A stretch of 43,818 nt of DNA, taken from positions 1 to 43,818 of the forward strand of contig JAFRNY010000039.1 of assembly GCA_017429945.1 (NCBI GenBank), written 5' to 3'. Of the stretch, positions 32,889-43,818 are shown in pieces. The notes under the pieces were generated by a model. The model was given only the letters and a program-made list of their open reading frames with translations, had not been told where the DNA came from and ran no database searches. A program made the position numbers and the translations under genes. Each line of letters begins with the position of its first letter. Within the stretch, counting starts at the first letter, position 1. The DNA is from Bacteroidaceae bacterium (lineage in GTDB: Bacteria > Bacteroidota > Bacteroidia > Bacteroidales > Bacteroidaceae).

Positions 32889-33761
32889 ATGAAAGATATT
32901 AGTCACATCCCCCCCGCCACGGCAGCGCCCGGCGCTTTCGTCGCCGATACCATTGACCGCTATCTCGACGGCCTCACCACTCCAGCCGAAGAGCAACAGC
33001 TACTCTCCGTCCTTGAAACCCGCGAAGCCCAAGGCACCATCCTCAACGATGACGAGCGTGCGGCCCTCGCCCTGCTGCGCCTCACCTTCCCGGAAGAGGA
33101 CACGGTCGCCCTTCTCACCGAGGATTGCAGCATTGAGTATGAGGAATTGAGTGGCGCAAACAAGCAAGCATCAGCCAGACTCGCTGGCAGCGGTCACCAA
33201 TCCAGAAGCAGAAATGCCCTTGCGCTACGCGGCCATATCCGTCGCATCGCCGCAACGGTAGCAACAGTTGCCGCTGTTCTCGCTCTCGTGCTGATGACTG
33301 TCATAGGAAAGAGAAACCGAGAAGATGTCCTCACCGCACAAACTAGCCAATCCTCATCGAGGACAAACCATGCGCCATCAGCCCTTGACGAAAGGGCAGC
33401 CCCATCCTCCGCCCTCCAAGCCCCATCCCCCGCATACTCTCCCCCAACCGTCCCTGTCAGTGAGGGAACGGTTGCCTTTGAGAATGGAAGAAAACAGCCT
33501 TCAAAACATTCCACTCCCTCCCTCACAGGGAGGGCTGTGGGTGAGTCTGTCGGGACTGTGTCTGCCGAGAACAAACCGATGACACCTTCACTGCCCAAGG
33601 AGGATGCCGTGACGCCTGCTTACGAAGACCCTGATGGCGCCGCCATTCTCGCGACCGAACAGCAACGTATCCTCGAGGTAGAACAGGCAGCCCGCCAACG
33701 CGCCATTGCCGTGACGCAGGAAAACACACTGGCATGCGTCACTGCCGCCTCGCCATCATAA
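32889..33761 (+). CDS. Membrane anti-sigma factor-like protein (first pair)
   Basis: 290 residues. The N-terminal cytoplasmic part (about 1-115) contains FVADTIDRYLDGLTTPAEEQ, which looks like an anti-sigma helix bundle. One transmembrane helix (about 118-138, IAATVATVAAVLALVLMTVI) is followed by a Pro/Ser-rich extracytoplasmic linker and a short helical end (ILATEQQRILEVEQAARQRA). The role is inferred from position after the sigma gene and from the single membrane span. About residues 175-222 are encoded by a palindromic repeat (R1, 33413-33560) also found in two other sensor genes here. The stop falls inside an 8-base tandem repeat. Confidence 0.75.
   Translation: MKDISHIPPATAAPGAFVADTIDRYLDGLTTPAEEQQLLSVLETREAQGTILNDDERAALALLRLTFPEEDTVALLTEDCSIEYEELSGANKQASARLAGSGHQSRSRNALALRGHIRRIAATVATVAAVLALVLMTVIGKRNREDVLTAQTSQSSSRTNHAPSALDERAAPSSALQAPSPAYSPPTVPVSEGTVAFENGRKQPSKHSTPSLTGRAVGESVGTVSAENKPMTPSLPKEDAVTPAYEDPDGAAILATEQQRILEVEQAARQRAIAVTQENTLACVTAASPS
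33413..33560. repeat. Intragenic palindromic repeat R1
   Basis: Inside the first anti-sigma gene lie two hairpins: aaccgtccct / agggaacggtt (33447-33474, one bulge) and ctccct around caca with agggag near 33512-33532. On the opposite strand the second reads ccctccctgtgagggaggga then gtggaatg, closely matching repeat R3 at 43640-43670 (ccctccctgatagggaggga then gcagaatg). The reading frame stays open through it and encodes Pro/Ser/Thr-rich linker. Confidence 0.7.
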
Positions 33762-39562: not shown

Positions 39563-40054
39563 ATGGATTACACGAAACCAACGTTCGAACGCCTGTTCAA
39601 GGACAACTATCCGCACATGTATCGCATGGCATTCTCTATGGTAGAGGACGCCGACGATGCCAAGGATGTGGTCAGCCAGGTGTTCACACAGATGTGGCGA
39701 AGCAAGCCCCAGGTGAGCGACGGCAGCTTGAGAGGCTACCTCCTGGCCGCCACCCGCAACCAATGTCTCCACCTGTTGCGGCAGCGGCAACTGCAGCGCG
39801 AGATGGAGGCCGAGTTGCAGCTGGCGGCGCAGGACAGCGTCGATGAAGAGCGCGAGGAACTGATGAGGCAACTGCAGCAGGTCATCGACGAGAACCTGAC
39901 AGAGCAGGACCGCCGCGTGCTCAGCCTCCACTACGACGAGGAGAAGACCTACAGCGAAACAGCTACCATCCTCGGCATCAGCACGGCAGCCGTGAACAAA
40001 CATATCACGCGCTCGCTGGCCAAAATCAGATCAACCCTTAACATTGCAAAGTAG
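39563..40054 (+). CDS. ECF-type sigma-70 factor (second pair)
   Basis: 163 residues. Region 2 (about 8-75): FKDNYPHMYRMAFSMVEDADDAKDVVSQVFTQMW-type sequence and GYLLAATRNQCLHLLR. Region 4 (about 105-160): LTEQDRRVLSLHYDEEKTYSETATILGISTAAVNKHITRSLAKIR-type helix-turn-helix. It resembles Bacteroidetes ECF sigma factors that work with membrane anti-sigma factors in nutrient or envelope sensing. The stop is one base before the next start, the same spacing as in the first sigma pair. Confidence 0.92.
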   Translation: MDYTKPTFERLFKDNYPHMYRMAFSMVEDADDAKDVVSQVFTQMWRSKPQVSDGSLRGYLLAATRNQCLHLLRQRQLQREMEAELQLAAQDSVDEEREELMRQLQQVIDENLTEQDRRVLSLHYDEEKTYSETATILGISTAAVNKHITRSLAKIRSTLNIAK

Positions 40055-40055
40055 T

Positions 40056-42035
40056 ATGAAGACTGAAGATATTGACAAGAAGATTGGAATGCCCGACGTG
40101 AATGAGGAGTGGGCACGCTTTGAGCGCGAAGTCATCAATAAGGAGAGTGCACGACCTAAGCGCGCAGCTGCATGGGCGGCAGGCATCGGCATCGCAGCCT
40201 CCATAGCGCTGATGGTGGTCTTGGGCGTTCAAGACAAGACCCAGACCCCCCTCCCGTCCCCCCTGAAGGGGGGAAGTGGTTACCTAACCAGAACAGAAGG
40301 GGAAGCATCCAGTCTGACGCATTCCACTTCCCCTCTTCTTGAGGGACCAAGCGTCTCTTCGAGCCGAGCGGAGGGGGGACGGGAGAGGGGCCTTATTGAC
40401 ATTGAAAGCCTCCAGGATGATTCTGAGGGAACAAGTTGGAGCACTCCCTTGGATCAGCAGCTGGCAGGCTTGACAATTGTCTCCAGCTCATCCAGCTTAG
40501 GACCAGGCAATACCATGCGCCTCGGAGGAACCTGCATTAAAGATTCTGATAGGATTGAAGGCAGGGATTTCGACCCCAGCACTCCCTTGGATCCGCCGAT
40601 CAAGGGGCTGACAATCGTCTCCAGCTCATCTGAATTAGGACCTGGCCATACCATGCGGCTTGGGCCTACGTGTCCAAAGGTGGTGGAACCTAACGCCATG
40701 CGCCCCTCGCTCCAGGGGCAGATAGCAGGGCTCCCGGACTCCATTGTGTTCATTCCCAGCGACTCCATACGTCAAGGAGCAAGCGCGAGCGACTCCATAC
40801 TCTATATGGTCAACGGACGAGTGGACCCAGACTTCAATGCGTTCCAAAGGGAGAAGGGCAAACGTGTGGCTTCAGACTTCAACTTCGCGACAAGCGCATA
40901 CCTCTTCGACAAGAATCAACTCCTCATCCATTATGAGAAGACTGAATTGCAGCAGGACTCGACCTGGGATGAATCCACGACCAAAGAGAGGGCCATCAAG
41001 CTGGTGCTGAACGCACAGACCGTGCCATTCAAGCCCACACGGGAAATGACGCCGTCGGAAATCAAGTCCCGCCAGACGGCCTACCTCCAGAAGACCTATC
41101 GCGCCCGCCTCAAGGGGGACACTCACAGCGACACTTACTTCTCTCCCGACCTGTTTGGCTCTACCGCAGAAGAACGCCTGTTCGGATTGCTCACCCTCCA
41201 GTGTGGGAACAACTATGTCCACGAAGCTTTTGGCCCCATGGCCAGCGACAGTCATGGCATCTATGTTCCCCTGGTTCGCGACGTGACACTGCGAGGCGGC
41301 GACCGGGCTTGGTACGACAAAGGCCGGCTGTGGGCGGTCAAGGACGATCCCCAGTGCGATGCCGTCATCAGCGAGCTCCGGCAGGCTGCCGGGCTTGCCG
41401 ATTCGCACGTAGAACTCAACGACAGCGTCGTCAAGCTGGCCATGATGAGCGGCGGACGAGTGACGGCGGGCGAGCCCCATCCCTTCAACACCCACATGCA
41501 GAGCGCCATGGCATCATCTTATCTGAACAAGAAATACAGTTCTTTGGATCAAAGCGTCTTCTACTTCAAGCCCGAGGCCGACGCGCCCTCCTACTGGTGG
41601 GCCGAAGCCTACTATTCCACTCGGTCACGGAGGGGCGTGGCCGTGCATCTGCATGCCGTCTATAAGCTCTACGCAGACGACTGCCCCGACCTCCTCGCCA
41701 ATCGCAGGCTCGTAGAGGGTAGGGTGATGAACGAGCAAGGCCAGCCGCTGGCTGATGCTCGCGTGAGCTTCGGCACTTTAGGTTCCTCTGGCCCCGAGAC
41801 CTCTGCACGGGCAGATGCCGATGGTCGCTTCTCGTTCTGGATGCCCTTCCGCGATGCTCCCGTCTGGGTGCTATGTCCGGGCTACAAGATCGTGAGGGTC
41901 CAGCCCGCAGATTCCTCCATGACCATCCGTATGAAAGCCTTCTCGCTCATAACTCCTGGACTCAGGCGATACCTCAACGCCAAGGACTACAAAGGACTCA
42001 AAGGAAAGAAGGAGTTGAAAGGAATCATAGACTGA
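40056..42035 (+). CDS. Membrane anti-sigma-like protein with plug-like repeats
   Basis: 659 residues. A short cytoplasmic segment (1-35, DIDKKIGMPDVNEEWARFE) and one transmembrane helix (about 36-56) precede a large extracytoplasmic part. Residues about 63-113 are encoded by palindromic repeat R2. Residues about 130-160 and 176-206 are tandem copies of GLTIVSSSSxLGPGxTMRLGxTC, and about 219-226 repeats the related LQGQIAGL, followed by ILYMVNGRVDPDF (about 249-261). These resemble the plug domain of SusC/TonB receptors. A large middle domain (about 300-540) is unrecognised. A carboxypeptidase-regulatory-like domain lies at about 551-630 (VEGRVMNEQGQPLADARVSF). The anti-sigma role is inferred from position and topology. 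Start at 40056, one base after the sigma stop. Confidence 0.75.
   Translation: MKTEDIDKKIGMPDVNEEWARFEREVINKESARPKRAAAWAAGIGIAASIALMVVLGVQDKTQTPLPSPLKGGSGYLTRTEGEASSLTHSTSPLLEGPSVSSSRAEGGRERGLIDIESLQDDSEGTSWSTPLDQQLAGLTIVSSSSSLGPGNTMRLGGTCIKDSDRIEGRDFDPSTPLDPPIKGLTIVSSSSELGPGHTMRLGPTCPKVVEPNAMRPSLQGQIAGLPDSIVFIPSDSIRQGASASDSILYMVNGRVDPDFNAFQREKGKRVASDFNFATSAYLFDKNQLLIHYEKTELQQDSTWDESTTKERAIKLVLNAQTVPFKPTREMTPSEIKSRQTAYLQKTYRARLKGDTHSDTYFSPDLFGSTAEERLFGLLTLQCGNNYVHEAFGPMASDSHGIYVPLVRDVTLRGGDRAWYDKGRLWAVKDDPQCDAVISELRQAAGLADSHVELNDSVVKLAMMSGGRVTAGEPHPFNTHMQSAMASSYLNKKYSSLDQSVFYFKPEADAPSYWWAEAYYSTRSRRGVAVHLHAVYKLYADDCPDLLANRRLVEGRVMNEQGQPLADARVSFGTLGSSGPETSARADADGRFSFWMPFRDAPVWVLCPGYKIVRVQPADSSMTIRMKAFSLITPGLRRYLNAKDYKGLKGKKELKGIID
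40246..40390. repeat. Intragenic palindromic repeat R2
   Basis: Nested inverted repeats inside the second anti-sigma gene: outer arms ctcccgtcccccc (40251-40263) and ggggggacgggag (40373-40385) are exact reverse complements; inner arms gggaagtgg (40271-40279) and ccacttccc (40324-40332) also pair; and cccccc-tgaa-gggggg forms a small hairpin. On the opposite strand it reads aagtggaatgcgtcagac, t, ggatg, matching R3 (gaatgtattagacaggatg). The frame remains open across it. Confidence 0.75.
40442..40673. repeat. Tandem repeat coding for plug-like motifs
   Basis: A 94-base unit (40442-40535) recurs at 40580-40673, starting cactcccttggatc in both and ending after the MRLGxTC codons. The offset is 138 bases (46 codons), so the frame is kept. 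The copies differ at scattered, partly synonymous positions, which suggests an older duplication. Confidence 0.8.
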
Positions 42036-42691: not shown

Positions 42692-43818
42692 ATGACTGCC
42701 AGCATCGTCATATACCTGTTGAAGTGGTCGCTCTGCCTGACGCTGTTCTATTCGCTGTTCCGGCTCTGCCTGCGCAGCGAGACCCTGCATCGGCTCAACC
42801 GTGCGGTGCTGCTGACGATACTCGTCGCCAGTATGGTCCTGCCCCTGTGCAGGTTGAGGACAGCGCGCCCGACCATCACGTCTGCAGGCGTCCAACACGC
42901 CGAAGCGGTCATCACGTCGCAGTTCAAGCAGCCTGCGCCTGTAATGCCGCTACCCGCAAGGTCGCAAACGCAGGCCTCGACGCCATTCCCATGGCTGCGG
43001 CTGACCGTTTATATTTATATAATAGGTGTAGTCGTGTTCTTCGGCGTTTATGTGTATAGCCTCTTGGGACTGCTGCTGACGTTGCGTGCCGGGCGACGCG
43101 TGCAGATGAACGGCGTGCCGTCGGGCGTCCGCCTCATCTGCTACGAACAAGTGCAATCGCCATGCAGCTGGATGCATTGGATTCTCGTTCACCCCAAGGA
43201 CATGCAGATGCCTATTATTCGTCATGAGCTGTCGCACATCCGTCACGGCCACTCATGGGATATGTTGCTCAGCGAGTTCACGGCACGCATGCTGTGGTTC
43301 CTGCCCTTTGCATGGATGCTGAGGCAGGACCTGGCCGACGTTCACGAGTACGAAGCCGACCGCGACGTGTTGCGCTCGGGCATCAACGAGGACGAGTACC
43401 AGCATCTGCTGATCGCCAAAGCCACTCGCGCTCGGCTGCGTCCCGTGGTGAATGCCCTCACGCAGAGCTCCGTCAAGAAACGTTTCATGATGATGTGCCG
43501 CCGTCCGAGCCATCGCGCCAGCGCCATCAAAGCCCTTTACTTGCTGCCCTGTGCCGGCATGGCGCTCACGGCCTTTGCCCGCCCGGCTTGGGTGGAAGAA
43601 GTAAGAAACCAGTTACAGGCTGAGGACTTGGACTCTCCCCCCGCCCTCCCTGATAGGGAGGGAGCAGAATGTATTAGACAGGATGAAAGAATGCAGTCCT
43701 CGAAGGTGACCGCTCCCTCCCTCCCGGACTCTCCCCCCGAGGATCCGGACTCTCCCCCCGCCCTCCCTGATAGGGAGGGAGCAGAATGTATTAGACAGGA
43801 TGAAAGAATGCAGTCCTC
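42692..43818 (+). CDS. M56 (BlaR1/MecR1-like) sensor peptidase, 3' end beyond the window
   Basis: At least 375 residues, open to the window edge. Hydrophobic helices at about 4-22, 33-50 and 108-130 form the N-terminal membrane part. The zinc peptidase motif is RHELSHIRHGHSWD (His178, Glu179, His182) with the third ligand in HEYEADRDV (Glu219 or Glu221). A fourth helix at about 283-300 (IKALYLLPCAGMALTAFA) leads to the extracytoplasmic side. After it comes VEEVRNQLQAEDL and then two identical in-frame copies of repeat R3 (DSPPALPDREGAE, CIRQDERMQSS). In this family signal sensing leads to cleavage of the BlaI partner. The sensor domain itself is not in the window. Bacteroidetes members often carry TonB- or plug-like C termini. 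Confidence 0.88.
   Translation, partial: MTASIVIYLLKWSLCLTLFYSLFRLCLRSETLHRLNRAVLLTILVASMVLPLCRLRTARPTITSAGVQHAEAVITSQFKQPAPVMPLPARSQTQASTPFPWLRLTVYIYIIGVVVFFGVYVYSLLGLLLTLRAGRRVQMNGVPSGVRLICYEQVQSPCSWMHWILVHPKDMQMPIIRHELSHIRHGHSWDMLLSEFTARMLWFLPFAWMLRQDLADVHEYEADRDVLRSGINEDEYQHLLIAKATRARLRPVVNALTQSSVKKRFMMMCRRPSHRASAIKALYLLPCAGMALTAFARPAWVEEVRNQLQAEDLDSPPALPDREGAECIRQDERMQSSKVTAPSLPDSPPEDPDSPPALPDREGAECIRQDERMQS
43630..43818. repeat. Intragenic palindromic repeat R3, two identical 72-base copies
   Basis: 43630-43701 and 43747-43818 are identical over 72 bases; the offset of 117 keeps the frame. Each contains ccctccctgatagggaggg and gaatgtattagacaggatg. Between them lies gctccctccctcccggactc, a third partial copy of the C-rich part. 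The window ends exactly at the last base of the second copy. Confidence 0.9.

Follow-up and report, generated by a model that had tools for sequence, protein, structure and literature searches.

We analyzed a stretch of 43,818 nucleotides (the window), which corresponds to positions 1 to 43,818 of contig JAFRNY010000039.1 in the Bacteroidaceae bacterium genome GCA_017429945.1, a draft of 92 contigs that is 82% complete. An open reading frame (ORF) at positions 40056-42035 of its forward strand lies directly behind the gene for an extracytoplasmic function (ECF) sigma factor. The initial annotation, made from the sequence, had proposed that this ORF encodes an anti-sigma-like protein which itself holds pieces resembling the plug of SusC-type TonB-dependent receptors, and that these might imitate a receptor plug or compete with one. 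The ORF indeed contains GLTIVSSSSSLGPGNTMRLGGTC and GLTIVSSSSELGPGHTMRLGPTC as a tandem repeat pair, plus a third piece, LQGQIAGL...ILYMVNGRV. The tandem unit measures 138 nt (46 codons) from start to start, and its two copies share 79% DNA identity over 86 nt. The layout of the locus is given below; dN/dS denotes the ratio of nonsynonymous to synonymous substitution rates and HMM a hidden Markov model.

39563-40054 (+): ECF sigma-70 factor gene; its stop codon lies 1 base ahead of the ATG of the anti-sigma-like gene.
40056-42035 (+): anti-sigma-like protein with SusC-receptor pieces, 659 amino acids, from the ORF list; belongs to a 44-member family.
40056-40166 (+): residues 1-37, predicted cytoplasmic sigma-binding segment; 15 invariant positions among 20 members, dN/dS 0.20.
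40173-40229 (+): residues 40-58, predicted single transmembrane segment; hydropathy 2.19, the sole such segment.
40240-40395 (+), ends approximate: predicted periplasmic linker, apparently from an in-frame palindromic repeat element; similar pieces in the genome, hairpin z -3.85.
40449-40535 (+): half-plug 1, residues 132-160; HMM built from SusCs only, independent E (iE) 1.6e-6.
40587-40673 (+): half-plug 2, residues 178-206; SusC-only HMM iE 0.0017; tandem copy of half-plug 1.
40710-41024 (+): apparent eroded full-length plug, residues 219-323; begins LQGQIAGL and ends before TVPF; recognised via the relative L262 and by hhalign.
41046-41699 (+): conserved central domain without assigned fold, residues 331-548; from alignment with relatives, dN/dS 0.36.
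41712-41900 (+): CarboxypepD_reg-like domain of the SusC N-terminal-extension type, residues 553-615; PF13620 E 3.9e-6.

The 659-residue frame is counted from the ATG, the automatic ORF list starting at a TTG four codons earlier. The sigma gene product matched Pfam Sigma70_r2 (1.3e-10) and r4_2 (1e-11), and its best NCBIfam model was TIGR02985, at 2.5e-33 but below the curated cut-off of that model. Searching the window protein alone against Pfam, NCBIfam and PHROGs returned CarboxypepD_reg, together with three weak Pfam matches over the same domain. The PF13620 match reached 27.6 bits, the curated cut-off being 32.3, and a SusC model match with an E of 0.025 fell over this domain as well. The central domain (residues 331-548) had no Pfam match. 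These two domains lie within the approximately 335 residues that follow the plug.

Relation of the repeats to SusC plugs

The resemblance of the repeats to SusC plugs was examined with HMMs built exclusively from SusC sequences. The window protein was detected with a whole-protein E of 6.8e-14 by an HMM of 23 SusCs of the genus, which are near-identical to each other, with an E of 6e-10 by an HMM of 34 SusCs, and with an E of 4.4e-6 by an HMM of 11 SusCs of its own genome. Among 2000 shuffled copies used as a control, the best E values were 1.3, 3.1 and 1.8 for the 23-, 34- and 11-SusC HMMs, respectively, so that the repeats stand well above chance. The search was also performed in the reverse direction, using a profile of 13 anti-sigma repeats, two of them from another anti-sigma scaffold. 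Besides the window, this profile picked up SusC genes from the genome of the window, with E values of 5.1e-16 and 4.6e-6. It matched all 91 genus genomes searched, the listed matches being mostly in receptor-size open frames, and the 23 matches that were read were all SusC plugs.

Direct comparison of the 13 anti-sigma repeats with 13 SusC plugs by hhalign gave a score of 98% with an E of 3e-13, the 29 aligned columns being 59% identical. A profile of 14 family members matched solved SusC-type structures over the plug (SusC 8ypt, 1.9e-9; BT_2264, 5fq6, 1.6e-6), and the same profile also matched the SusC N-terminal structures 9hfj and 6ytc. A lack of similarity to plug families at the level of profiles had been set beforehand as one of two results that would refute the proposed likeness, the other being a predicted structure unlike a plug; the profile similarity was found. 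Judged by sequence comparison, the window repeats are homologous pieces of the SusC receptor plug. Each half-plug covers about 30 residues of a plug of about 105 residues, so that on their own the two probably cannot adopt the complete plug fold.

Rather than being a loose fragment, the third piece seems to open a full-length plug that has become eroded. This suggestion rests on two relatives, L262, whose plug is better preserved, and L015. L262 and the window protein form one alignment over residues 219-628 (40% identity, E 7e-81), and residues 302-400 of L262 match positions 113-203 of the SusC model TIGR04056 (protein E 2.8e-15). With these bridging relatives included, hhalign of the eroded-plug region covered nearly the full plug (83%, E 8.7e-6). 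Removal of the L262 and L015 rows reduced the match to the first 41 columns (38%, E 3.4e-4), and nothing was found when the profile of this region was compared with solved structures.

The family of anti-sigma-like proteins

Of 150 relative genomes, 31 (its own included) contained relatives of the window protein at E<=1e-5, a few of them only as fragments. Eight further loci were taken from named metagenome-assembled genomes, mostly of rumen origin; among these loci, L015 does not encode an anti-sigma protein. A profile covering residues 1-60 matched 53 of 251 genomes of the taxonomic family, in 14 of 30 genera, at E<=1e-3; its best E was below 1e-10 in 7 of these genera, the others giving weaker, partial matches that were left unread. 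At the level of the order, where 295 genomes were searched, the same profile matched two at E<=1e-4, including that of the window.

From these searches we retained 44 members with an intact start and frame; close orthologues are included, so that the members are not independent. Those read, from seven genera, have a common N-terminus followed by varying plug, TonB C-terminal, SusC N-terminal and Ton-box-like modules. Upstream DNA of 300 bp or more was available for 42 members, the window protein included; in 41 of these the gene immediately follows an ECF sigma gene, mostly after a gap of one base. Exactly one hydrophobic segment, N-terminal in position, was present in 42 of 44 members, the N-terminus being predicted to be cytoplasmic and the remainder periplasmic.

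CarboxypepD_reg was detected in 37 of the 44 members, TIGR04056 in 34 (via the plug, CarboxypepD_reg or both), Pfam Plug in 8 and TonB_C in 6, all at E<=1e-3, many of these domain matches falling below curated cut-offs. The SusC-only half-plug HMM matched 28 members at the same threshold, the best value among 880 shuffled sequences being 0.026. A Ton-box-like end of the LREVKV type follows the CarboxypepD_reg domain in 16 members, for 0.3 expected in shuffled sequences, with a pattern composed after examples had been seen. No outer-membrane barrel was recognised: the best TIGR04056 stretches listed for anti-sigma members lie within positions 2-205 of the 981 of the model. One member, L261, scores 48.1 bits with the SusC signature TIGR04057, above its curated cut-off of 46.2 bits; since it comes from a single-contig genome, an assembly chimera is unlikely to explain its combination of domains.

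The full plugs of seven members were compared with 16 SusC plugs. Six of the seven were closest to one SusC subfamily, of about 1160-1220 amino acids; three of these member plugs were 56-62% identical to it and the others 37-40%. The seventh (L264) was nearest to a different SusC, with 33% identity. A tree placed the seven anti-sigma plugs together as neighbours of that subfamily. Support for this grouping was modest (84/82; 82% of bootstrap trees), and it may reflect a single origin without proving one.

Signs of selection were sought among five close orthologues; the regions are short and the ratios rough. The N-terminus, with a dN/dS of 0.20, was the best conserved part of the family. The central and CarboxypepD_reg domains gave 0.36 and 0.35, half-plug 2 (residues 177-209) 0.40 and the eroded plug 0.39, while values of 0.69 and 1.01 were obtained for half-plug 1 (residues 128-160) and for the spacer between the repeats. 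The plug pieces thus appear to be kept by purifying selection, half-plug 1 least firmly.

Some loci depart from the common layout. L057, a single counted member, has by sequence extra BspA-type leucine-rich repeats, and L261 an extra DUF4419 domain. L068, L069 and L072, which lie near other ECF-like sigma genes, have an anti-sigma-like scaffold of another kind, with one or two half-plugs plus a common C-terminal tail. Downstream of the anti-sigma gene in the window are a BlaI-like repressor gene and an M56 peptidase gene truncated by the contig end. In a related genome, only a 72-amino-acid frame with the C-terminal end of the gene is kept (L078:3360-3575), ahead of the BlaI and M56 genes.

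A possible receptor surrogate

Homology and the position of the gene behind an ECF sigma gene both support the proposal that the anti-sigma-like protein itself holds the plug pieces. The gene product would cross the inner membrane once and act as an anti-sigma factor on the ECF sigma factor encoded just upstream, which this membrane protein probably restrains. Its periplasmic part would consist of the soluble parts of SusC/RagA minus the barrel, namely half-plugs, a full plug (here eroded) and the SusC-type N-terminal domain, extended in relatives by a Ton-box-like end, a TonB C-terminal domain or both. The N-terminal segment would keep the sigma factor bound until the receptor-like part is engaged, either by TonB or by a receptor with its Ton box or plug exposed in transport; pulling or unfolding of the periplasmic part would then allow proteases to free the sigma factor. 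We tentatively prefer this interpretation, a barrel-less receptor surrogate reporting TonB or receptor engagement with proteolytic release of sigma, and regard it as possible rather than established. It is favoured by the occurrence of the same SusC parts on a membrane anchor, in another order and with no recognisable barrel. Gene order, domain homology, signs of purifying selection and module variation are observed; sigma binding, topology, engaging partner and proteolytic release are parts that we infer.

According to the available part of PMC7782687, the N-terminal CarboxypepD_reg domain of SusC precedes the Ton box and the plug follows, TonB acting on the plug; the Ton box of Bt1763, DEVVVTG, comes after its N-terminal domain. 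The same text reports that in vitro the SusC plug leaves the barrel in closed states, and that cleaved plug was observed. SusC/RagA proteins (TIGR04056, TIGR04057, PF07715, PF13715) and the window family share the plug, the N-terminal-extension CarboxypepD_reg domain and, in relatives, a Ton-box-like motif. They differ in that the window family has an inner-membrane anchor and no recognised barrel, and in module order: plug, CarboxypepD_reg and Ton-box-like end in the family, but CarboxypepD_reg, Ton box, plug and barrel in SusC.

Several results weigh against the surrogate interpretation. Pfam Plug (PF07715) and NCBIfam found no plug in the window protein, the pieces being detected via custom profiles. 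None of the 9 Pfam families detected across the 44 members is a known anti-sigma domain, and none was detected in the window protein. The half-plug was not detected at E<=1e-3 in 16 of the 44 members, and L267-L269 and L272 have quite different periplasmic parts, so the plug pieces are not essential to the family. Half-plug 1 is weakly constrained, and the tail of the window protein lacks a Ton-box-like motif. Given this missing end and the eroded plug, the window copy may sense by partner binding rather than by pulling. Finally, an AlphaFold2 model based on an 8-row alignment was uninformative on this point, with a mean predicted local distance difference test (pLDDT) value of 35.7. The plug stretches scored 21-31, with means of 18-27 per ten residues across residues 61-300, and the central domain obtained no confident model. 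Only the CarboxypepD_reg-like domain at the C-terminus was modelled well, with a pLDDT of 69-87 per ten residues and one dip to 48.

The nearest described idea appears to be Dma, a single anti-sigma protein spanning the envelope, as far as the available part of PMC13088901 goes. Dma likewise comes from Bacteroidota and has an adjacent ECF sigma gene, an N-terminal anti-sigma segment, one transmembrane helix and a long periplasmic part, and as a single protein it is meant to act across the envelope. In contrast to the window family, with its SusC-type N-terminal domain, plug parts and no recognised barrel, Dma ends in a beta-barrel on a disordered tether, according to the same text. The sigma partner of Dma is of the ECF21 type, while the best NCBIfam model for the window sigma factor was TIGR02985. 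Among the papers listed by a literature search, with most subscription journals outside its reach, none dealt with plug-bearing anti-sigma factors or plug-bearing macroglobulins, and neither 'plug' nor 'TonB' occurs in PMC8999054.

Signalling by TonB-dependent receptors normally takes a receptor and a separate anti-sigma factor. An anti-sigma-like protein with a plug, an N-terminal domain and sometimes a TonB C-terminal domain would be a one-protein shortcut. Deletion of the SusC N-terminal domain is dominant-negative, as stated in the part of PMC7782687 available. The family would make testable both the role of this domain and whether cells monitor plug ejection.

Alternative roles of the plug pieces

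A first alternative, which we consider unlikely, is that the plug pieces are bait: a periplasmic protease of exposed or ejected SusC plugs would also cut the anti-sigma protein and free the sigma factor. Plug ejection and proteolytic cleavage in vitro, as reported in the accessible text of PMC7782687, fit this idea. The same plug segment was moreover found in protease inhibitors. A2M is present in 87 of 91 genus genomes, and among the 30 best-scoring A2M loci, which are not a random draw, 8 carried a SusC plug segment about 50 to 10 residues before the A2M domain (iE<=1e-3, reaching 3.4e-16). We take the position just before this domain to be the macroglobulin bait region. Two plug-bearing A2Ms and a partial third were scanned; all had A2M and bMG10, both full ones also had MG2, and one of those scanned, L155, is fused to a GH18 domain.

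Plug-bearing A2M loci: L152-L159, L161, L171, L175, L177, L179, L180, L182, L188, L189; several are the same gene fetched twice.

The anti-sigma family co-occurred with the plug-bearing A2Ms in 6 of 8 cases, as compared with 3 or 4 of 22 for the others (Fisher P 0.003-0.007), in a hand tally of the inspected set that leaves phylogeny uncontrolled and includes incomplete genomes. In addition, L015:2278-5511 encodes a secreted-looking protein with a plug remnant, a central domain of the window type, CarboxypepD_reg domains and a serpin with LQGRISGLDVV in its reactive loop. Against the bait idea, the segment was not detected at iE<=1e-3 in 22 of the 30 A2Ms, no candidate protease has been named, and baits and linkers tolerate insertions anyway. 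A serpin bait as a general pattern was rejected: beyond L015, none of 36 genus serpin loops (pattern-picked, from 29 of 30 genus loci) contained LQG.

A further relative of the plug was found in the genome of the window. L114:3085-5127 encodes an M56 (BlaR1-like) peptidase that combines the second half of a SusC plug with TonB_C (SusC signature 1.4e-8, below cut-off; TonB_C 6.1e-14), which presumably works with a BlaI-type repressor. It resembles the window protein as a membrane protein with a SusC signature match, and in its TonB_C it resembles members of the family, but it has a peptidase domain and is not a sigma-factor partner. On a broader and quite improbable view, the first half of one SusC plug and its preceding linker would be a portable 'receptor-integrity' module in rumen Bacteroidales, used for sensing in anti-sigma and M56 proteins and as bait in macroglobulins and the serpin. 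If so, the sensors would register when exposed plugs are pulled by TonB or cut by proteases, and the macroglobulins, occasionally a serpin, would trap the plug-attacking protease with a half-plug bait. In such a cell, the vulnerable site of the nutrient receptors would be both monitored and protected by copies of its own sequence.

It is likewise doubtful that the pieces reflect passive recombination, in which plug DNA of multicopy SusC genes would have been copied, without any role in sensing, into linkers and loops that tolerate changes in length. The pieces do occupy linkers, baits and loops, the modules vary among members and half-plug 1 shows the high ratio given above. The adjoining linker (40240-40395) is itself a long palindromic repeat, to which pieces at other sites of the genome (L003-L006) are 71-94% identical; its absence from the relative L074/L014 suggests that a repeat element was inserted here in frame. 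However, half-plug 2 and the eroded plug look constrained and the spacer does not, within the limits of such short regions. SusC-type parts also recur in 34 of 44 members, and Plug, CarboxypepD_reg and TonB_C are components of a single functional system, which argues against mere copying.

FecR-type anti-sigma factors pair with an STN-bearing TonB-dependent receptor, and the window protein could similarly serve ordinary cell-surface signalling, its pieces merely aiding docking to a separate receptor. We consider this rather improbable. Both systems have an ECF sigma/anti-sigma pair and a link to TonB-dependent receptors; in the FecR/STN case a separate receptor signals by its STN domain (PMC7782687, as far as its available text goes), whereas here the receptor parts lie inside the anti-sigma-like protein. 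The same part of that source describes STN domains used in signalling in the SusCs of loci controlled by ECF sigma/anti-sigma pairs. No FecR domain was matched by Pfam in the window protein or the 44 members, and no receptor that could have donated the pieces or partnered the protein was present among the six genes scanned at this window end; the STN domains of the genome's receptors were not searched. Two SusCs of this plug type sit on other contigs of the genome. Their neighbours are presumably SusD-like and fasciclin-like genes. A chance resemblance of low-complexity serine/glycine stretches, suggested by the serine-rich repeats and their absence from Pfam matches, is contradicted by the reciprocal profile matches and shuffle controls and has a negligible probability.

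Another palindromic repeat was observed at the end of the window. Two 80-nt copies of it, with a CCCTCCCTGATAGGGAGGG core, lie at 43622-43818, in frame inside the M56 gene, and reach the contig end. The CCCTCCCTGATAGGGAGGG core recurs, with one mismatch, at 33516.

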